Source: a bacterium (lineage in GTDB: Bacteria; Pseudomonadota; Alphaproteobacteria; Acetobacterales; Acetobacteraceae). From it: DNA of 64,000 bases. The DNA is taken from the NCBI GenBank assembly GCA_026224825.1, contig JAMFRO010000006.1, positions 1 to 64,000 of the forward strand, given 5' to 3'. The notes under the pieces were generated by a model. The model searched no databases. It saw nothing but the letters and a program-made list of their open reading frames with translations, and was not told the DNA's origin. The position numbers and the translations under genes are program-made. Shown here piece by piece: positions 16,153 through 31,700 of the stretch; the stretch's first letter is position 1, and each line of letters opens with the position of its first letter.

Positions 16153-17167
16153 AATCCAGAAACAACTCCCGGCCCCCGGGTTGAGCGGGCCGGAACGCGC
16201 GGCGATGGTGCTGCGTGAACTCGGCGAATTCACGGCCGCGGCGGTGTTGCGCGAAATGGATGAGACGGCGGTCAACCGCATCTCCATAGCCATGACAACA
16301 TTGAAGGCGGTGCCGCAGGATATGCGCGAGGATATCATGCTCACCTTCGCCGGCGAGCTTGGCATTACCGGCGTCGGCGGTGATGGTATGAAATTCCTCA
16401 ACCGCGTGCTGGTCTCGGCTCTGGGCGAGACGCAGGCGCGCGAGATATTGGAGCGGCTGAGCCGTACCGAACGGCGCTCGTCATTCAATCTGCCGCCCAA
16501 TGCCGATGCGCGCTCGCTGGCGATGCAGATGTTGCATGAACGGCCGCAGACCATCGCACTTCTGCTGGCGCATATTCCGCATGAAATGGGCGCCAATCTG
16601 CTCACCTTCCTGCCGGAGGATCTGGCGGCTGAATCGCTCTACCGTTTCTCCACGCTCGATGTTGTCTCGCCGAATGTGGTGGTGGAGTTGCGCGACATGC
16701 TGGAGGAGCTGATGAGTGCCTCGGGCAGCGTCGGGCGGCGCGTCACCAATCTCGGCGGCGCCAAGCAGACGGCGGATATTCTGAATCATTTCCCGAGCGG
16801 TATGTCCGATGTGGTGCTGAGCGCCATCGACACGCGCGATGCCAAAACCGCTGAGAAAATCCGTGAGAATCTCTTCACCTTCATCGACCTAGGCAAGCTC
16901 ACCGACCGCTCGATGCAAATTCTGCTGCGCGAAGTTCCGGGTGACAAATTGGCGCCGGCGCTGCGCCTGGTGGATGAGGCATTGCGCGCTCGTTTCTTCC
17001 AGAATCTCTCCGCCCGGCAGGTGGAGGTGCTGAAAGAAGAATTGCGCTCCGGCCCGCCGATCCGCCGTGCCGATGCGTTGGCGGCGCAGACGGAGATTGT
17101 CGAAGTTGCGCTGCGGCTGGCCGGCGAAGGCCGGATTACCATCAGCGCGACAGAGGAGATGGTGTGA
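16145..17167 (+). CDS. fliG: Flagellar motor switch protein FliG
   Basis: Rotor protein at the base of the MS-ring that contacts the stator. The 340-aa protein has three FliG domains and the C-terminal charged torque helix (SARQVEVLKEELRSGPPIRR). ATG 16145 overlaps the fliF stop; an in-frame upstream start at 16082 would lie inside fliF and is less likely. The stop overlaps fliK as TGATG. Confidence 0.97.
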   Translation: MSEIQKQLPAPGLSGPERAAMVLRELGEFTAAAVLREMDETAVNRISIAMTTLKAVPQDMREDIMLTFAGELGITGVGGDGMKFLNRVLVSALGETQAREILERLSRTERRSSFNLPPNADARSLAMQMLHERPQTIALLLAHIPHEMGANLLTFLPEDLAAESLYRFSTLDVVSPNVVVELRDMLEELMSASGSVGRRVTNLGGAKQTADILNHFPSGMSDVVLSAIDTRDAKTAEKIRENLFTFIDLGKLTDRSMQILLREVPGDKLAPALRLVDEALRARFFQNLSARQVEVLKEELRSGPPIRRADALAAQTEIVEVALRLAGEGRITISATEEMV

Positions 17168-18471
17168 TGCAGACAGACAGCATAGTGCCCGTAACCACGG
17201 CGGCGACGCCGGCAACAATCGCCGCAGCGCCCGATACGGCGAGCTGGCAGACGGCGCTGGCTCAAGCTGGGGAGCAGGCAGCGCCTGCAACGCCGGTGCA
17301 GGACAAGCCTGCTGCCGCGAAGCCCAGCGCGAAGGATGCCACGGCGGAAGTGTCATCGGTGTTGGCGGCGGCAGAAAAAACCTTGGCACAACCAAGCAAG
17401 AAGGTAGCGCTGCCAAATACTGAGAGCGCTGCGCCATCCGCGCAAAAATCCACGAAAGAGGATAAAACCACAGCGGCACCGGTGGCTGTTGCCGTGACGC
17501 AGCCCATGCTGGACACAGCAGTGCCAACAGCGCCGTCAGGCACCAGCCCGGCCGCCAGCGCGGCGGATACGGTGCAAGCAGCCGCTGCGCCGGTTGTGGC
17601 CAAGCTGCTGCCGCAAATCTCCACAACCGCGCCGGCCAGCCCGGATGATGCAGCACCGGCGACGCCGCAAGCAACGACAGCCACGGCCACATCGGCTCAC
17701 GCGGCCACACCAGCCCCGGCCTTGCCGCAGCTCAGCACCGCCGCCTTGGTGCAAGCCGCAGTGCCGGCCGCCGCCACACCCACAACTGTTGTAACGCCGA
17801 ACGTGGCTCCCGCCGTAACACCGCAAACGCCCACCACAACCCATACGGCGGCGAGCGATGTAACCCACGCCGCCGTGGCCAGTATCAGCACCGCCGGCAG
17901 CAGCAAAGCCAGCCTGGCCGCGGGTGGCGAGGACATCACAATCGCGCCGCCCGTTGCCGCCGCCAAGGACGACAGCGCGGATAAACAAACCACCATCCAG
18001 CCGGCTGCCTTCGCAGCACCTCTGGTGCATGACACCACGGCATCACAGCCGCCCGTGCCCACCACCACCAGCACCGCCTTGCCCATCACCCAGCCCAGCG
18101 CCGCCGGGCTCGCCGCCGCCGTCACCGCCATGCATCAATCCGGGCAAAGCGGCGCCATTTTGCGGCTCGACCCACCGGGGCTGGGAGATCTCTCCGTGCA
18201 CGTCGCATTGGGCCAGAACGGGCAGGTGAATGTGCTGTTCCTGCCCTCTACCCAGGCGGCGGCTACAGCAATCCAAAACAACCTGCCCAGCCTCGGCACC
18301 GCACTGGCGCAATCGGGCCTCACCCTTGGCCAGGCGCAGGTGGGCGGGCAGTTCAACCAGAATGCGGGGCAGGGGGGGTACCAACCGCCATCCCCCCCAT
18401 CATTCACGCAAACATCCACGAGTTTCGATTCAGAAACATCATCACCCAGCGGATTGAGCGCCTATGCTTGA
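17167..18471 (+). CDS. fliK: Flagellar hook-length control protein FliK
   Basis: Exported ruler that measures the hook and triggers the FlhB switch. In the 434-aa protein, residues 1-310 are Ala/Thr/Pro-rich low complexity, as in other FliK proteins. The C-terminal hook-length domain (about 315-405) has ILRLDPPGLGDLSVHVAL and GTALAQSGLTLGQAQV. ATG 17167 overlaps the fliG stop; a GTG codon just before is less likely. The gene occupies the place between fliG and the switch genes where fliH-fliI-fliJ usually precede it; those follow 6 kb later here. Confidence 0.88.
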   Translation: MQTDSIVPVTTAATPATIAAAPDTASWQTALAQAGEQAAPATPVQDKPAAAKPSAKDATAEVSSVLAAAEKTLAQPSKKVALPNTESAAPSAQKSTKEDKTTAAPVAVAVTQPMLDTAVPTAPSGTSPAASAADTVQAAAAPVVAKLLPQISTTAPASPDDAAPATPQATTATATSAHAATPAPALPQLSTAALVQAAVPAAATPTTVVTPNVAPAVTPQTPTTTHTAASDVTHAAVASISTAGSSKASLAAGGEDITIAPPVAAAKDDSADKQTTIQPAAFAAPLVHDTTASQPPVPTTTSTALPITQPSAAGLAAAVTAMHQSGQSGAILRLDPPGLGDLSVHVALGQNGQVNVLFLPSTQAAATAIQNNLPSLGTALAQSGLTLGQAQVGGQFNQNAGQGGYQPPSPPSFTQTSTSFDSETSSPSGLSAYA

Positions 18472-19723
18472 ACAGACTGAAGATGTCGAAATCATCGACC
18501 TGCTCGATTCCCTGCGCGCGCCGCAACTGCGGTCGCTGCTCATGGAGAATCTCTCCGACCGTTTCATGCGCCAGATCGCGTTCACGCTGTTCCAGCGCAT
18601 GCGTCATTCGGTGCAATTGCTGTCCTGCATCAACAACGTCATCAGCCATGAATCCGCAATGTCGGCTTTGCCTGAGGTGATGCTCGCCGGCATATGCGAG
18701 CTCGCACCTTTACGCGGCCGCATGCTGCTGGCCATCGATGGTGATCTCATCGGTGCGGTGGTCGATGCCATGTGCGGCGCCACCACCTCGCACCCGTTCG
18801 AGCGTTACGAGCTTTCAGCTTTGGAAACCCGGGTCGGCAAGCAGATGATCGACCTCTCTCTGGAGACGATCACCGAAACCCTCGCCCCGCTGATCCAGCT
18901 CAACCTCACCCCCATCGGTTACGAGAATGCCACCGGCATGCTGGCCATTGCCGATGGCCAGGATTGGATGATCGCGGTCACCGGGATTTTCGAAACATCG
19001 CTTGGTTCCGGCACGATCAAACTCATCGCCCCATATGCCGGGTTCGAGCCGCTGGAGACCAAGGTGGCCAACCAATCCGGCCTGCTCAGCGGGCGCGGTG
19101 CGGATGCCGGGTGGACCAGCGCCATCGAGACGCTGACCGAGGCGACGCCGGTGGATATTCGTTTCGAGCTGGCCCGCGCCATCATCCCGCTCGGCGTGTT
19201 CGAGGCGCTGCGGCCGGGTGATATTCTACCATTTACATTGGCACCGGATGCCGTCGCGGTGTCCGGCGAGGTTGATTTGTTTCGTGCCGATTACGGCCAG
19301 GCGGAGGGGCATGTCTGCTGCCGCGTCAAATCGGGTCCGCAAGGAGATATGGATATGCCTATACAGAAAGAACGAACAAACGGCGGAGAGAAACTGGCCG
19401 AGCCGGAGCGGGTGGAGCTGGAACGCATCCAGGTCCAGCCGCGCGGTGCGCCTGCCATCACCGCGCGTAATGTGCTGGACCGCGTGCAGGTGGCACTTAC
19501 CGTGGAGTTGGGCCGCACGCAGATCACGGTGAAGGATCTGCGCGCCTTGCGGCATGGCCAGATCGTTTCGCTCGACCAGATGGTGGGCGAACCATTGGCG
19601 ATTTTCGCCAATGGCCAGAAGCTCGCCTATGGCGAGGTCGTGGCCGTTGCCAACGACCGTTACGGCGTGCGCGTCACCGCTCTTGCGGAGGATGCGGAGG
19701 CTGAGAACGGAGGCGTGGCGTGA
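18464..19723 (+). CDS. fliM: FliM-FliN fusion motor switch protein
   Basis: C-ring switch protein. In the 419-aa protein, residues about 35-210 form the FliM middle (CheC-like) domain. Residues about 225-290 form a first SpoA domain (FELARAIIPLGVFEALRPGD), as in FliM. A hydrophilic linker (about 292-330) leads to a second SpoA domain at about 335-405 (RVQVALTVELGRTQITVKDL), which is a FliN domain. No separate fliN was found elsewhere in the window. The N-terminal CheY-binding peptide is only weakly recognisable (VEIIDLLDSL against the usual LSQxEIDALL). It overlaps fliK by 8 bp. Two-SpoA architecture is normal for SctQ of injectisomes but not for flagellar FliM. Confidence 0.9.
   Translation: MLEQTEDVEIIDLLDSLRAPQLRSLLMENLSDRFMRQIAFTLFQRMRHSVQLLSCINNVISHESAMSALPEVMLAGICELAPLRGRMLLAIDGDLIGAVVDAMCGATTSHPFERYELSALETRVGKQMIDLSLETITETLAPLIQLNLTPIGYENATGMLAIADGQDWMIAVTGIFETSLGSGTIKLIAPYAGFEPLETKVANQSGLLSGRGADAGWTSAIETLTEATPVDIRFELARAIIPLGVFEALRPGDILPFTLAPDAVAVSGEVDLFRADYGQAEGHVCCRVKSGPQGDMDMPIQKERTNGGEKLAEPERVELERIQVQPRGAPAITARNVLDRVQVALTVELGRTQITVKDLRALRHGQIVSLDQMVGEPLAIFANGQKLAYGEVVAVANDRYGVRVTALAEDAEAENGGVA
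19355..19723 (+). CDS. fliN: Possible free FliN from internal start inside the FliM-FliN gene
   Basis: Inside the fusion linker, AAGGAG at 19341-19346 is followed after eight bases by in-frame ATG 19355. This is the best-looking ribosome site in the switch region. Initiation there would give a 122-aa protein (MPIQKERTNGGEKL...) consisting of the linker and the second SpoA domain, the normal size of FliN. Type III injectisome SctQ proteins such as YscQ and SpaO are known to be made as full-length and internally initiated C-terminal forms. That this gene does the same is inferred from the site only. Confidence 0.5.
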   Translation: MPIQKERTNGGEKLAEPERVELERIQVQPRGAPAITARNVLDRVQVALTVELGRTQITVKDLRALRHGQIVSLDQMVGEPLAIFANGQKLAYGEVVAVANDRYGVRVTALAEDAEAENGGVA

Positions 19724-19983
19724 GCAGCACCAGCCTTTCCACAGGCGCCTGGCTCGCCTTCGCGCAATTGGCCGGTCCGGTGCTGTTGGCCATGCTCATC
19801 ATCGGCCTGGCGGCGGGCATATTGCAAACCGCCACACAGGTGCGTGAGGCCTCCATCCCCTTCGTGCTGAAGCTCGGCGGCATCGCCATGCTCACCACCG
19901 CCGCCGGCAATTTCATGCTGCGCGGTGTGGAGAGTTACGCTACCGATCTATTCACCAATATCCCGAGGCTGCTGCATGGCTAA
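19720..19983 (+). CDS. fliQ: Flagellar export gate protein FliQ (copy 2, canonical sequence)
   Basis: Two-helix export-channel subunit. The 87-aa protein matches standard FliQ closely: LAMLIIGLAAGILQTATQVREASIPFV in pieces, and the C-terminal FTNIPRLLHG, like FTNLPYIIG of enteric FliQ. It overlaps fliM-N by 4 bp and flhA by 8 bp. A different fliQ sits between fliP and fliR at 1995-2270. Whether both enter the same FliP5Q4R1 complex cannot be told from sequence. Confidence 0.9.
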   Translation: MSSTSLSTGAWLAFAQLAGPVLLAMLIIGLAAGILQTATQVREASIPFVLKLGGIAMLTTAAGNFMLRGVESYATDLFTNIPRLLHG

Positions 19984-22072
19984 TGCCCTTGCTTTGCCGC
20001 GCGCGCCCGGCGCGCTGAGCTTCACCCAGCTCTCCGGCCCCATCGTCATACTTTTGGTCCTGGTCATGCTGGTGGTGCCACTGCCGCCCGCGGCCATCTC
20101 ATTTTTGTTCGCGCTCAACATCTCGGCCGGGCTCGTCATTCTCGGCGCCTCGCTCTACATCCCCTCGCCATCCGAGTTTTCCTCCTTCCCCTCGGTGCTG
20201 CTGGCCACAACGCTGATGCGCCTGGCGCTCAACGTCGCCACCGCCCGCGCCATTCTTCTCAACGGCTATACCGGGCCGGGTGCGGCCGGGCATGTCATCG
20301 AATCCTTCGGCCAGTTCGCGGTCGGTGGCAATTACGTCGTCGGCGGCATCATCTTCCTCATCCTCATCATTATCAACTTTACCGTCGTCACCAAAGGTGC
20401 GAGCCGCGTCGCCGAAGTTTCCGCCCGCTTCATGCTGGACTCTTTGCCTGGCCGGCAGATGGCGATCGATGCCGAGATCAACGCCGGGATACTCTCCCCC
20501 GCCGCCGCTGAGCGCCGGCGTGACAATTTGCGCCGCGAGGCCGATTTCTTCGGTGCCATGGACGGCGCCTCTAAATTCGTGCGCGGCGATGTCGTCGCCG
20601 CCATGATCATTCTGCTCGTCAACATGCTGGGCGGGCTCATCATAGGCACGCTGCAATACGGCCTGCCGCTCGCCGATGCCGCGCGTACCTACACGCTCCT
20701 CACCGTCGGCGATGGCCTCGCAGCGCAAATCCCCTCGCTTACCATTTCGGTTGCCGCCGGCCTCGTCGTCACCCGTGTCGCCACCGGCGAAGACATCGGT
20801 GAGCAGATCAGATCCCAGCTCGCCAAATACCCGCAGGCGCTCGCCATCGCCGCGGCCATCACCGGCGCCATCGGGCTGGTGCCGCAAATGGCGCATATCC
20901 CGTTTTTGCTCCTGGCCACGGCTTTGGGTACCTCCGCCTGGCGGCTGGACCGCGCCGCGAAGATTGCCATCGAGGCGGATGCGACGGGCAAAACCACAGC
21001 ATTACCCAATAACGAGGTAAAAACGGATTCGCTGATCGACGTTACCGGCGTCGATCCGTTAGGCATGAACATAGGCTTCGGCCTTGCCCCGTTGGTCGGG
21101 CAGGGTGAGGGAAGGCTGCTCAACCGCCTTACCGCCGTGCGCCAGCGCTATGGCCGCGCCATGGGCTTCCTCGTCCCCGCCGTGCATGTGCGCGATTCAT
21201 CGGATCTCCCGGCGCATGGTTACCGCTTCACTTTGCGTGGTGCGGCCATCGGCGGCGGAGAAGCGTGGCCCGGCCAATGGCTCGCCATCGAGGGCCCGAT
21301 GGTGGTGGAAAAACTCTCCATCGGCCGCGCCGTGAAAGACCCCGCTTTCGGCCAGGCCGCCGTCTGGGTGCCGCAATCCGCCATCCCGGCGGCGGAGGAG
21401 CTCGGCTATACGGTGGTTGACGCACCTTCAGCCATGGCCACGCATTTTTCCGAAATCCTGAAACGTCACGGCGCCGAATTGCTGGGCCGCCCGCAGGTTG
21501 AGGGTCTGCTCACGCGCCTCGCCGAAACCACCCCGCGCCTGGCCGAGGATCTGCGTAACAACCTCTCCGTTGGCCTCGTGCGCCAGGTGCTGCAGGGGCT
21601 GCTGGCCGAGGAAGTGCCGATCCGCGATTTCGAGCGCATCGCCGAGGCGCTGGTGGAAGCCGCCGATAATGGCGCCAAAGACCCCGACAAGCTCCTCGCC
21701 GCCGTGCGCCTGCGCCTGGGCCGTTTCATCGTCAGTCAGATCGCGGGTGCCGATGCCGCCTTCCGTGTCGCCGTGCTGCCGCCCAAGCTCGAAGAGCTGG
21801 TGGCTAAATCCCTGCGCACTTCCAAGGAAAATGCCATCGGCGCCGAGGTGGAGGCCGAGACCGCGCAGCATCTGCGCCAGGCTGCCGAGCAGGCCGCAAA
21901 ATCCATGCGTGCGCGCGGGCTGAAGCCGGTGCTCATCGTGCCCGCGGCCTTGCGCCGCGCCGTGGCGCGCGCGGCCGCCGGGCTCATCCCCGTGGTGGCG
22001 CTGGAGGAAATCCCCGATACCATGCCGCTGCAGGTGGTGCAGAGTGCCGAGGCGGGAGCGGCCAATGGCTGA
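19976..22072 (+). CDS. flhA: Flagellar export gate protein FlhA
   Basis: Large export-gate subunit that uses the proton motive force and docks chaperone-substrate complexes. In the 698-aa protein the N-terminal half has about eight membrane helices with RLALNVATARAILL and GASRVAEVSARFMLDSLPGR; the cytoplasmic half is about 350 residues. ATG 19976 overlaps the fliQ stop; the in-frame start at 19925 would lie inside fliQ. The stop overlaps fliA by 8 bp. Confidence 0.97.
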   Translation: MANALALPRAPGALSFTQLSGPIVILLVLVMLVVPLPPAAISFLFALNISAGLVILGASLYIPSPSEFSSFPSVLLATTLMRLALNVATARAILLNGYTGPGAAGHVIESFGQFAVGGNYVVGGIIFLILIIINFTVVTKGASRVAEVSARFMLDSLPGRQMAIDAEINAGILSPAAAERRRDNLRREADFFGAMDGASKFVRGDVVAAMIILLVNMLGGLIIGTLQYGLPLADAARTYTLLTVGDGLAAQIPSLTISVAAGLVVTRVATGEDIGEQIRSQLAKYPQALAIAAAITGAIGLVPQMAHIPFLLLATALGTSAWRLDRAAKIAIEADATGKTTALPNNEVKTDSLIDVTGVDPLGMNIGFGLAPLVGQGEGRLLNRLTAVRQRYGRAMGFLVPAVHVRDSSDLPAHGYRFTLRGAAIGGGEAWPGQWLAIEGPMVVEKLSIGRAVKDPAFGQAAVWVPQSAIPAAEELGYTVVDAPSAMATHFSEILKRHGAELLGRPQVEGLLTRLAETTPRLAEDLRNNLSVGLVRQVLQGLLAEEVPIRDFERIAEALVEAADNGAKDPDKLLAAVRLRLGRFIVSQIAGADAAFRVAVLPPKLEELVAKSLRTSKENAIGAEVEAETAQHLRQAAEQAAKSMRARGLKPVLIVPAALRRAVARAAAGLIPVVALEEIPDTMPLQVVQSAEAGAANG

Positions 22073-24252: not shown

Positions 24253-24543
24253 ATGGCAAAATCAGTGAAGTCCAAAACCCTCCTCAGCCCCTTCATGCTC
24301 ACTCTGGCAGCCATGACCGGCTGGGCCGCGTTGCATGAGCCAGCTGCGTTCAGCACCGCCAGCGTGGGTGTGTGGGTCTGCGGCGCCTTTACCGTGGCCT
24401 TGCTCACCCGCGCCGCTCTGGCTTTGTTCACCCCGCTGCTCGGCTTCCTCGGCATTCTTGTAAGCCGGGCCATGAAGCCCGTGAATCATGATGGTCATCG
24501 TGATGGTCATCGTGACGGTCATCGTGATGGAGCCGAAACATGA
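24253..24543 (+). CDS. Small membrane protein with DGHR repeats, unknown function
   Basis: Not recognised. The 96-aa protein has two predicted membrane segments (about 10-28 and 38-72) and a hydrophilic C-terminal tail with three exact DGHR repeats, encoded by 12-bp tandem units at 24490-24525. The tail is rich in His, Asp and Arg and could bind metal, but that is only an inference. A strong GGAGG site precedes the ATG, and its stop overlaps fliH as ATGA, so it is expressed with the motor and export genes. Lying between motB and fliH, it may be a lineage-specific flagellar accessory. Confidence 0.75.
   Translation: MAKSVKSKTLLSPFMLTLAAMTGWAALHEPAAFSTASVGVWVCGAFTVALLTRAALALFTPLLGFLGILVSRAMKPVNHDGHRDGHRDGHRDGAET
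24490..24531 (+). repeat. 12-bp tandem repeat in coding sequence
   Basis: Three consecutive units of GATGGTCATCGT (third with one C for T) plus a partial fourth. Each unit encodes Asp-Gly-His-Arg. Unit length is a multiple of three, so copy-number change keeps the reading frame. Confidence 0.95.
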
Positions 24544-28259: not shown

Positions 28260-31200
28260 ATGTCGGACGCAATCTTCATCGTCGGCTATTACCGCAGCGG
28301 TACCTCCGCACTTTCGGGCGCCCTGCAACGTGCGGGGGTCAAATTCTATAACGAGGCCGATCCGAACGAGCACAACCCGCTCGGCTTCTATGAAATCCCC
28401 GAGCTGATCGAATTCGATGTCGAATTGTTCAACAAGCTCGGCGTCGATTGGACCGATGTGCGCGGCCTGCCGCTGGGCTGGGCCGAGCGCGCCGACCTCG
28501 CCAATATGCTGACCAGGCTCGACGATATATTGCGCCGCCGCTTCACGCGGAAGGACCGCATCTGGGGCCTCAAACACCCGCATCTATGCCGCACTTTGCC
28601 GCTGTATGAGCGCGCCGCGCGTCAGGCCGGGCACAAGCCGCATGTCGTGCACATCTTCCGCGACCCCTGGACCGCCGCCGCCAGCCAGGGTTTGAAAAAC
28701 GGTCTTACCCGCGCCCATGCGCTGCTGCTGTGGATGAGCTACATCACCAATGCCGAGCGCCAGGCGCGCCATTTGCCGCGCAGTTGGCTCACATACGAGG
28801 ATCTGCTTGCCGAACCAGGTGCGGCACTCGCCCGGCTCGGCACCACGCTCAAGCTCGACCTCGGCAATACGGCGGCGGCCGCGAGCTATCTCACAACCCA
28901 GCTCAACCGTTCCGAGGCGATGAGCCAGACCGATCTCTGCCGCCCGCTGCGCCGCCTGGTGCAGCAGGCCTGGGACGCTATTCGCGAACGCGAATTCGCT
29001 CCCGCCATCTGGGATGATTTCGCGGTGGAAACAGCCGATCTGGTCGGCTTCCTCACCGAGATTGGCGCCAGCCGTGGCCGCGTCATCCCCGCCCTCGGCG
29101 GCTCGCTCGCCACCACGGCGGGCCACACCACCGCCGCCACCGCCAAATCCCTGCGCCCGCCCGAGCGCACGGATGAAGGGGCGCGCACCCGCCTCACCGC
29201 CTTGCAATCCGCCACCGGCGCGCTGCCAACCGTCTCGGTCATCATCGTCGCCCCGCGCGGCCGTGCGGCAGCGGTGAACGACACGCTGGAATCCCTGAAC
29301 GCGCAATGGCTGAAACCCGCCGCCATCCGCATCCTCGCGGTGGAGGAGGTGAGCATCGAGGGCGTTACCACCATCGCCGTGCCGCCCGAGCCCGAGGCCG
29401 CCACGCGCATCGCCTGCGCCGAGCTGAACCTGGAAGCCAGCACCGCCGATTACGTCGCCATCATCAATGCCGGCGATACGGTGGCGCCCGATGCCTGCCT
29501 GCGCTTCGCCCTCACCGCGCGTGAGCACGATTCCGCAATGATCTATTGCGATGAGATCGTGCCGCGCGCCGGCGGCGCCTGGGTGCGGCACAAGCCGGGC
29601 TGGGACATCACCCGCCTGCGCCAGGCCGCCTATATCGGCGACTGGGTCTGGTACCGTGGCGCGGAGGTGCTGCGTCTCGGCGGCTTCGCCCCGCATGCCG
29701 CCGGGGCCGAGGAGTATGACTACCAGCTCCGCCTCGCCGAAACCGGGGCAAAAATCACGCGCCTGCCGGAGGCTTTGTTCACCCGCAGCGCACAAAGCCA
29801 GCGCGACCACATCGAGACCGATGTGTTCTGCGCCCGCGCCGTCGCCGCCCTCAAACAGCATCTGGACCGCGTGGGCCTGCCCGCCGAGGTGCAAAGCCGC
29901 CAGCACGCCGGGCTGTTCCACCACATGCGCCTCACCACGGACCCTGGCACCAGTATTCTGCTCCTCTGCGACGGCGGTGAGATCCCCGCCCTCGATGGCT
30001 GGTTGGCCAATTTGCTCAATGCCGGCGCGCTCAGCGGGCCGATCATCCTGGCCGGTGCGGCGCTGAGCCTGCCGATGCAGAACTACCTCACCGCGGTCAC
30101 GCAACAAGGCACCGAACTAGAGGGCAAGGTGCTGGCCGTGCTGCCCACGCCTGGGCTAACCCCGTCCCAGGCCCTGGCCCAGGCCGTGGCGATGGTGCAA
30201 ACCCCCTATCTCGCCATTCTCGACATCCGGGCTCAGCCCACCGCCCCCAACTGGGTGCAGGGCCTGCGTTCCCGCCTGGCCGACCCCACCATCGTCATGG
30301 CCGGGGCCCGCACCCTCATCTCCACCGGCAATGACATCCGCCAGGCGGCGGTGCAGGGCCCCATCATCATCGGTGCGGACACACGGCTTGGTGCCGGGCA
30401 CATGTCCGACGACCCCGGCCCCGGCGGCTGGCTGCTGGTGGACCAGGAGGCCAGCGCCATCGCCCCGCCCGGCCTGCTGGTGCGCAGCGATGCGCTGCAA
30501 GCCTGCAATTTCCCGGCGCTGGCGGGCGATGCCTTGTGGATCGACCTCTGCGCCCAGCTCCGCGCCAACGGTACGGATAAAGCGGGCTCTAAACTGGTGT
30601 GGACGCCGGATGTCTCGTTCATCGCCCCGCCGGATACCGTGCAGCCCGATGCCGCCAGCCAGTTCCGCAACGGCACAGCCGCGGCACAGGCGTTGCCCTG
30701 GGCCGACCCGTACCATCACCCCGCCCTCTCGCTGCATGGCGATCTGCTGGCCGGTGAATCCCGCAACGGTCTCATCGGCGCCGTGCCGGCCGATCAGCAC
30801 AGCCTGCTGGTCAGCGGCGATCCGCTGACAGGCGCCCCGGTGCTCAATGCCGCGCGCGCCCTACGCCGCGCCGGCATCACCGAGGCCGATTGGGTACCCG
30901 AACTGCCAGGCGCCGCCGACCTCGGCCGCCGCGCCGCTGTGGGCTGGGTGCGCATCAACCCGCTGCGTGCGCCGGATGAATTCAGCCCGCCCCACACCGC
31001 CGTCTACACCGCCATACCGGAGCAGGAGGCGCTGCCCGCACTGGCCGCGGCCGCCCAGATTTATGCCACCTCGCCCGGGCTGGTCACGCAACTGCGCCGC
31101 CTCAGCCCCGCGGGCCAGCCCATCGCCCTCTGGCGCCCAGCCCTGAGCCCGCGCATCTGGCGGGAGCTCACCTTCGGCACCGGGCTCAACACCAAGCCGC

Positions 31201-31700
31201 GCGTGCTGTGGTTCGACGAAGGTTTTGCCCCGCCCTGGATGGTCGATCTCATCAACGACACGCTGGAGAGCGCCTCCTGGATCGTGGTCGAGCGCAAGGG
31301 CGCGAAATATGCCGGCTCGGTGGCGCGCATCGCCCCGCAGGAGTCGGAATTCGCCTGGGCCCAGGCGATGGCGGAGCTCGGCCCGCAGATCCTGGTCCGT
31401 CCGGCCAATGCCGACACCCATGCCGATCATTACCCGGCACTCCTCGCCGCCGCCGCCGGCTGCCACATCCTCACCGATGAGCGGCTGGACGTACCGCCCA
31501 GCTTCGGCGCCGTGCCGCTGCCTGCCCGCGCCCCGGCCTGGACCGAGGCCCTGCGCGCCGCCATCGCGGATCTGAAGACCACGCTGGAGCAGGGCCGCGC
31601 CGCCCGCGCCGCCGCACTTTCGCTTCCAGGGCTGGAGGACGCGCCCCCGCCCTGGCTGCATGCGGTGGAGCATACCCTACTGCGGAGTGCCGCCGAATGA
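28260..31700 (+). CDS. Sulfotransferase / glycosyltransferase multidomain protein in the flagellar operon
   Basis: Large 1146-aa cytoplasmic protein. Residues 1-200 look like a PAPS-dependent sulfotransferase: the 5'-phosphosulfate loop is FIVGYYRSGTSAL (R12, S13, G14, T15) and the 3'-phosphate site is R134-D135 with S142 (FRDPWTAAASQ). Residues about 325-545 resemble a GT2 glycosyltransferase (VSVIIVAPRG; DYVAIINAGDTVAPDA; HKPGWDITRLRQAAYIGDWV). The metal-binding acidic motif is reduced to one clear Asp. Residues about 560-720 look like a second, more degenerate GT-A fold; the last 170 residues (RVLWFDEGFAPPWMVDLI) resemble a sugar-transferase C-terminal half. It lies 11 bp after flgL and overlaps flgA as ATGA. 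A role in flagellin or hook-protein modification is inferred from position. Confidence 0.75.
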   Translation: MSDAIFIVGYYRSGTSALSGALQRAGVKFYNEADPNEHNPLGFYEIPELIEFDVELFNKLGVDWTDVRGLPLGWAERADLANMLTRLDDILRRRFTRKDRIWGLKHPHLCRTLPLYERAARQAGHKPHVVHIFRDPWTAAASQGLKNGLTRAHALLLWMSYITNAERQARHLPRSWLTYEDLLAEPGAALARLGTTLKLDLGNTAAAASYLTTQLNRSEAMSQTDLCRPLRRLVQQAWDAIREREFAPAIWDDFAVETADLVGFLTEIGASRGRVIPALGGSLATTAGHTTAATAKSLRPPERTDEGARTRLTALQSATGALPTVSVIIVAPRGRAAAVNDTLESLNAQWLKPAAIRILAVEEVSIEGVTTIAVPPEPEAATRIACAELNLEASTADYVAIINAGDTVAPDACLRFALTAREHDSAMIYCDEIVPRAGGAWVRHKPGWDITRLRQAAYIGDWVWYRGAEVLRLGGFAPHAAGAEEYDYQLRLAETGAKITRLPEALFTRSAQSQRDHIETDVFCARAVAALKQHLDRVGLPAEVQSRQHAGLFHHMRLTTDPGTSILLLCDGGEIPALDGWLANLLNAGALSGPIILAGAALSLPMQNYLTAVTQQGTELEGKVLAVLPTPGLTPSQALAQAVAMVQTPYLAILDIRAQPTAPNWVQGLRSRLADPTIVMAGARTLISTGNDIRQAAVQGPIIIGADTRLGAGHMSDDPGPGGWLLVDQEASAIAPPGLLVRSDALQACNFPALAGDALWIDLCAQLRANGTDKAGSKLVWTPDVSFIAPPDTVQPDAASQFRNGTAAAQALPWADPYHHPALSLHGDLLAGESRNGLIGAVPADQHSLLVSGDPLTGAPVLNAARALRRAGITEADWVPELPGAADLGRRAAVGWVRINPLRAPDEFSPPHTAVYTAIPEQEALPALAAAAQIYATSPGLVTQLRRLSPAGQPIALWRPALSPRIWRELTFGTGLNTKPRVLWFDEGFAPPWMVDLINDTLESASWIVVERKGAKYAGSVARIAPQESEFAWAQAMAELGPQILVRPANADTHADHYPALLAAAAGCHILTDERLDVPPSFGAVPLPARAPAWTEALRAAIADLKTTLEQGRAARAAALSLPGLEDAPPPWLHAVEHTLLRSAAE

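Follow-up and report, generated by a model that had tools for sequence, protein, structure and literature searches.

A FliM-FliN fusion gene with a candidate internal start

The DNA analysed here, hereafter the window, is a stretch of 64,000 nucleotides from an acid-loving Acidocella (Acetobacteraceae; assembly GCA_026224825.1, contig JAMFRO010000006.1, positions 1 to 64,000), and our subject is a flagellar gene that joins FliM and FliN in one chain and carries, between its two halves, a predicted second translation start. The gene occupies 18464..19723 of the forward strand, on which all features named below lie, and consists of one uninterrupted open reading frame (ORF) of 419 residues. Inside it, the Shine-Dalgarno (SD) sequence AAGGAG at 19341..19346 is followed, after a spacer of 8 nucleotides, by an in-frame ATG at 19355..19357, from which a predicted short product of 122 residues, free FliN (19355..19723, MPIQKERTNGG...), would be made. 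The original prediction had described this single frame with a FliM middle domain, a FliM-type and a FliN-type SpoA domain, together with the AAGGAG, the ATG eight bases downstream and the 122-residue frame, and both the domain content and the coordinates proved correct.

The FliM middle domain lies at 18524..19063 (PF02154, residues 21-200), where the score of 62 bits exceeds the Pfam FliM gathering cut-off of 27, and its fold matches that of the FliM middle domain 7dm9 (TMt 0.89). It is followed by SpoA1, a FliM-type SpoA domain at 19139..19330 (PF01052, FliMN_C/SpoA, 37.9 bits), and by SpoA2, a FliN-type SpoA domain at 19475..19684 (PF01052, 75.1 bits against a cut-off of 23.8). Among the NCBIfam profiles, the fusion matches FliM best (TIGR01397, 134.2 bits, under the equivalog cut-off of 219.6), with FliN (TIGR02480) at 79.4 bits, narrowly below its cut-off of 84.05, and SctQ (TIGR02551) at 71.2 bits, missing its equivalog cut-off of 100.8. 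As an observation in its own right, the FliM middle domain (window 18464-19063) reads CGAT/FGAT at the position where canonical FliM has the motif GGXG, and the FliG contact of this FliM may therefore differ.

An AlphaFold2 model of the fusion, built with 47 sequences, has a mean predicted local distance difference test score (pLDDT) of 74 and a predicted template modelling score (pTM) of 0.48. In this model, the two SpoA parts are separated by a predicted disordered stretch, residues 292-333 (pLDDT < 50), which coincides with a hypervariable linker at 19337..19462 and holds both the SD and the ATG at 19355. The Foldseek matches of the model are FliM of the Salmonella C-ring, the FliM(SPOA)::FliN fusion 4yxb (rank 7), FliM middle domains and FliN, and SpoA2 matches the FliN chains of the Salmonella C-ring with 44-54% identity.

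Predicted pairing with the anti-SD is -8.0 kcal/mol at the internal site versus -3.3 kcal/mol at the start of the fusion (18464). In A. aromatica, the 16S rRNA, as delimited by its Rfam match, ends precisely with the anti-SD sequence. Two patterns for the 16S tail, a longer and a shorter one, were tried on the window's assembly and neither was found there; the shorter was found in two of five genomes, A. aromatica being one of them and the window's genome not. The G+C content at third codon positions reaches its minimum at the internal start (0.44 versus 0.77 overall, the lowest of 385 scanned intervals), a value that overlaps the SD codons and is thus not independent of them. A second in-frame ATG lies at 19349, 2 nucleotides past the SD, and is also present in two of 23 other close fusions (L034 and L036).

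The fusion is embedded in a flagellar operon with the order fliF-fliG-fliK-[X]-fliQ-flhA, in which it takes the place of X. Upstream, fliK (17164..18471; PF02120 Flg_hook, 54.5 bits) overlaps the start of the fusion by 8 nucleotides; downstream, fliQ (19720..19983; PF01313, 53.1 bits) overlaps its stop and is followed by flhA (19976..22072; PF00771 FHIPEP, 737 bits). By Pfam, the upstream neighbours are FliF, FliG and FliK, and the downstream neighbours are a FliQ-type export protein, FHIPEP (FlhA), a sigma-70 factor, MotA, MotB, FliH and an ATPase of the type III secretion system type. FliG, FliK, the MotB plug and FliH are flagellar markers, so this is not an injectisome cluster.

Base-level conservation of the internal site

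We compared fusion genes from named contigs and from the genus genomes, matching repeated records by sequence and counting each once (L004 and L041, being identical in sequence, enter as a single count). L073, of which only the 3' part is present at a contig start, was excluded from the glycine-codon, FliM-tree and openness analyses. An SD core stands 4-9 nucleotides ahead of an in-frame linker ATG in all 24 close fusions and in all five diverged ones. The fusions from genus genomes have no stop within the frame, and a sequencing frameshift is therefore unlikely.

When the 24 close fusions are aligned on the internal ATG, the bases from -15 to -8 are nearly invariant, with the majority sequence GAAGGAGA and 1.34-2.0 bits per position; the spacer carries 0.01-0.76 bits, and the ATG, invariant in 24/24, the full 2.0. 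The linker varies in length on either side, and the distance from SD to ATG is constant. Third codon positions give the same footprint: within the SD they hold 1.46 and 1.75 bits (-13 and -10), in the spacer 0.17, 0.01 and 0.17 bits (-7, -4 and -1), and upstream 0.17, 0.18, 0.37, 0.51, 0.75 and 0.22 bits (-16, -19, -22, -25, -28 and -31).

Codon choice points the same way. In the glycine-codon analysis (23 genes), the glycine of the SD is encoded by GGA in 22 of 22 cases; at 25 other well-kept glycine columns GGA occurs in at most three of 23 genes, and across the fusion genes it accounts for 60 of 771 glycine codons. The SD is also retained where the residues change, as in GAG GAG GAG (A. facilis, L052) and TTT GGA GGA (L108), and despite altered residues in AAT GGA GAA (L005) and TCA GGA GAC (L051). 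Only three of 450 other in-frame ATGs in the fusion genes reach -7.4 kcal/mol.

At the protein level, the motif x[GE][DE]xxM is found in the linker of 105 of the 120 relatives listed, and in 101 of these 105 the residue after the Met is Ser, Ala, Thr, Val or Pro; a small residue after Met is the pattern of natural N-termini. Of the 15 proteins that escape the regular expression, 13 have a shifted or altered motif with a Met at the corresponding point or close by; in the other two, the position of the internal Met is occupied by Val (P0088) or Leu (P0083).

Distribution of the internal site and of standalone fliN

A PF01052 profile search over 38 genomes of the genus matched 33 and found no SpoA gene in the other five. 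In 27 genomes, one or two fusions stand directly before fliQ-flhA, 29 in all, and a simple test for an SD followed by an ATG is positive in 29 of 29. With the same profile, the window's assembly (108 contigs totalling 4.27 Mb, 94% complete) yields the fusion as its single SpoA gene, and no separate fliN turns up in any of the 27 genomes with an internal-start fusion, the window's included, although many genus genomes are draft assemblies in which fliN could be missed in any single case. The earlier claim that the locus has no separate fliN thus stands for the window's assembly and extends to the other 26 genomes.

Standalone fliN takes the slot before fliQ-flhA in three genomes of the genus (G177, G197 and G206) and in two of a second genus (G053, and G236, which is judged to be Acidisoma silvae). 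The fusions of these five genomes lie outside the operon: four are on a different contig, and that of G236 is at a distance of about 17 kb. No counterpart of the window's remaining flagellar genes was found next to them, and the SD-plus-ATG test is negative in five of five. Among six fusions located elsewhere than before fliQ-flhA, a single one is positive (L110, in G205), at a non-homologous place. The internal site and standalone fliN are thus distributed in a near-complementary manner, and each genome with the fusion system in which the fliQ-flhA slot can be seen shows one source of FliN and no more, be it the internal start or a gene of its own. In the genus, 28 genomes have a fusion and show no separate fliN, and the internal site is present in 27 of them.

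Several genomes depart from the common arrangement. Two, G176 (A. facilis; L052 and L122) and G179 (L053 and L123), hold two fusions each, every one directly before its own fliQ-flhA, and thus have two flagellar gene sets per genome. Two others carry canonical-type genes with about 20% FliM identity, namely FliM and FliN in G175 and FliM only in G196; the canonical-type FliM, a 334-residue frame, stands in place of the fusion, and the FliN of G175 has 118 residues (records L125 and L126 in G175, L127 in G196). The flagellar genes in these two genomes look as if they had been replaced.

Beyond the genus, a search of 385 genomes drawn from the class (E <= 1e-20) found a single-frame full-length fusion in the window's own genome only, and a family search with a diverged member as query (397 genomes drawn, E <= 1e-40) gave matches confined to two genera, both searches being of a kind that would miss fusions of other origin. 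In the class-wide search, matches across the end of FliM and FliN in two genomes (L159 in G819 and L160 in G591) contain stops, which suggests separate adjacent fliM and fliN in other Alphaproteobacteria. In the second genus, a 351-residue open frame with two SpoA stretches (G130:C59:242970-243449; L147 and L149) is possibly SctQ-like.

Weighing the evidence

Several observations weigh against an internal start under selection or against the reach of the comparison. When the eight codons that precede the ATG of the window gene are resampled synonymously, P is 0.14. Across 28 genes, the individual P values are 0.06-0.74, and the mean over the 28 was reached in three of 1000 resamplings; this test has little power because the codons for Glu-Gly-Asp are prone to form an SD, and L051, which shows the SD, the ATG and the footprint, was left unscored since its start lies beyond the search range. 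Predicted openness of the site is moderate, exceeding the gene mean in 20 of 23 genes and falling below it in three, with a median of 17% of gene positions equally open. Three diverged fusions (L082, L053 and L081) have weak SDs of -4.3 to -4.9 kcal/mol, and among the proteins that escape the linker expression, a few metagenome relatives (P0117 and P0119), seen as protein only, have no Gly in the linker. The exception among the 28 genomes is G205, which has a fusion without the homologous site (at the end of SpoA1, AAGG precedes an ATG by 4 nucleotides) and in which no fliN was found. Neither flhA nor fliN was found in G205 (contig C13, L117), although the assembly is rated 100% complete; either there is a gap in the assembly or the operon was lost, and because flhA is missing as well, a fliN-bearing operon may be out of view. 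Finally, the site-less fusions form one clade in the FliM tree (support 99/93; L152 is not in the tree), so the contrast between internal site and standalone fliN should not be counted five times and may reflect a single evolutionary event.

Four other explanations of the site have to be set against these data. The first, which we regard as unlikely, is that the SD-like motif acts as a programmed pause that lets SpoA1 fold before SpoA2 is synthesised, with no new product; it would account for a site placed directly after SpoA1 and for an SD kept at base level. A pause needs no ATG, yet all 24 close fusions have the ATG, and the nearly random spacer that separates it from the SD is of fixed length; the Met is followed by a small residue in 101/105 proteins, and fusions of identical domain order are without the motif where a standalone fliN is present.

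There is very little to commend the second, that the site is an unused vestige of an old fliN start left behind by the fusion. Relatives do have a standalone fliN in the equivalent operon slot, and that of G177 has GAAGGA before MMANQK, like the M(A/S)(D/E)QK of the fusion linker, the other standalone starts resembling the linker less. A relic would be expected to decay, however, and what we find is that neighbouring third positions are randomised while the SD and ATG are not, and that the site is absent from the clade with standalone fliN. The third, that Glu-Gly-Asp-x-x-Met is kept because the linker needs these residues for its function as protein, the SD being a by-product, seems to us highly improbable as well: the residues are indeed common among the listed proteins (105/120), but the glycine codon is GGA in every case, the SD remains when the residues become EEE, FGG, NGE or SGD, and the linker is predicted to be disordered. 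Chance alone, which the original prediction had allowed for, is compatible with the window gene by itself because of its resampling P of 0.14, and is ruled out once relatives are compared, by GGA codon use, the base-level footprint and the recurrence of SD and ATG; the alignment of homologues that had been proposed as a check thus found both elements kept beyond what the protein needs.

Proposed mechanism

From these sequence comparisons, we conclude that one gene very probably encodes both the FliM-FliN fusion and a predicted second product, free FliN, which would be started on the same mRNA from the conserved SD and ATG in the linker. Initiation at 18464 would give the 419-residue chain FliM-SpoA1-SpoA2, in which SpoA1 and SpoA2 likely pair with one another, as the solved FliM(SPOA)::FliN fusion and SctQ suggest. 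Ribosome entry at the AAGGAG and ATG 19355 would give the FliN of 122 residues, which would dimerise and then dock. Two free FliN per fusion would produce the FliM1:FliN3 unit of the flagellar C-ring, and the fused rotor, by analogy with the systems below, would need this free FliN.

Comparison with known systems

The comparisons below draw on excerpts of the cited articles in PubMed Central (PMC). In SctQ (YscQ, Spa33, SpaO, HrcQ), one gene gives rise to a full-length protein and an internally initiated SctQ-C (PMC4295842; PMC8553256; PMC13059759). The full-length and short forms of Spa33 and YscQ assemble in a 1:2 complex, and assembly fails with YscQ lacking the internal start (PMC4832279; PMC4295842); the literature takes SctQ to correspond to a FliM-FliN fusion together with free FliN. 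Like SctQ, the window gene is one ORF with SpoA1 and SpoA2 and a predicted internal start before SpoA2 that would give a FliN-like short form. Unlike SctQ, its protein ranks as a flagellar FliM/FliN in the profile searches and belongs to a flagellar operon, and its predicted internal start has a strong SD and an ATG, whereas SpaO uses GTG (PMC4443714); in HrcQ, GAGG stands 11 nucleotides before the internal start at codon 211 (PMC8553256). Because FliM ranks best by profile and the neighbours are flagellar, we infer an origin independent of SctQ, so that of the two possibilities first raised, a convergent or an ancestral version, convergence is retained and descent from SctQ is not favoured.

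Canonical fliM and fliN, as in Salmonella and Thermotoga, supply the same parts, a FliM middle domain, SpoA1 and the SpoA2 of FliN, from two genes, whereas the window has a single fused ORF with a conserved internal start. In the canonical switch, FliM and FliN are reported to occur at 1:3 (PMC4832279), and FliN is described as indispensable to flagellar function (PMC13059759). The engineered FliM-FliN fusions of Salmonella (Kihara 1996, cited in PMC4832279; structure 4yxb) share the domain order of the window gene. Such a fusion forms few and fragmented C-rings and is complemented by FliN, not by FliM (PMC4832279), and it supports flagellin secretion and some swarming (PMC4443714). Unlike these laboratory-made genes, the gene of the window, a natural one, would bring a start for FliN with it.

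The closest comparison is with the two-gene genomes of Acidisoma silvae and Acidocella, which have a homologous FliM-FliN fusion and a FliN in the same operon slot. Unlike the window, they supply the two products from two genes, with a fusion that lacks the internal site and whose FliN domain is, in four Acidocella genomes, strongly diverged. Among the matches listed in the open-licence part of PMC, none reports, in its title or the beginning of its abstract, a flagellar FliM-FliN fusion that occurs naturally or a FliN made from an internal start. The internal-start strategy is known from SctQ; its predicted flagellar use, with such base-level conservation, is a new form of it.

Other features of the window

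Two further ORFs stand near flagellar genes. A 96-residue ORF between motB and fliH (24253-24543) ends in a repeat of His, Asp, Gly and Arg (HDGHRDGHRDGHRDG). A 1146-residue ORF adjoining flgL (28260-31700) resembles, by eye, a sulfotransferase P-loop at its start and then a glycosyltransferase, and could possibly have a role in flagellin modification.

Origin and significance

The start of standalone fliN in G177, GAAGGA before MMANQK, is near the linker of the fusions, more so than other standalone starts, and in three genomes the standalone FliN clusters with the FliN half of the fusion L082 (support 83/67). On these two grounds, the internal start is likely the point, since retained, at which translation of an ancestral fliN in this slot began. 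Either a fliM came to be fused to the fliN of the operon, or a gene with two products was split at a later stage. In the midpoint-rooted FliM tree, the site-less split clade stands beside operonic fusions that include L082, on long branches, and Acidisoma, the second genus, is in the split state. The FliN-like domain of four non-operonic Acidocella fusions (L119, L120, L121 and L117) sits on a very long branch (3.49) of the FliN tree, which is also midpoint-rooted, as if it had diverged fast; the branch of L006 is also long.

If this reading is true, it would show by what route fliM and fliN can give rise to a fused gene with two products. The arrangement that has been equated with SctQ, a FliM-FliN fusion plus free FliN, appears to be present here in a flagellar operon, and the reading predicts that the fused rotor would still require free FliN in order to reach FliM1:FliN3. 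The Acidocella and Acidisoma lineages include both the one-gene and the two-gene state and may serve as a natural setting in which to compare them by experiment.

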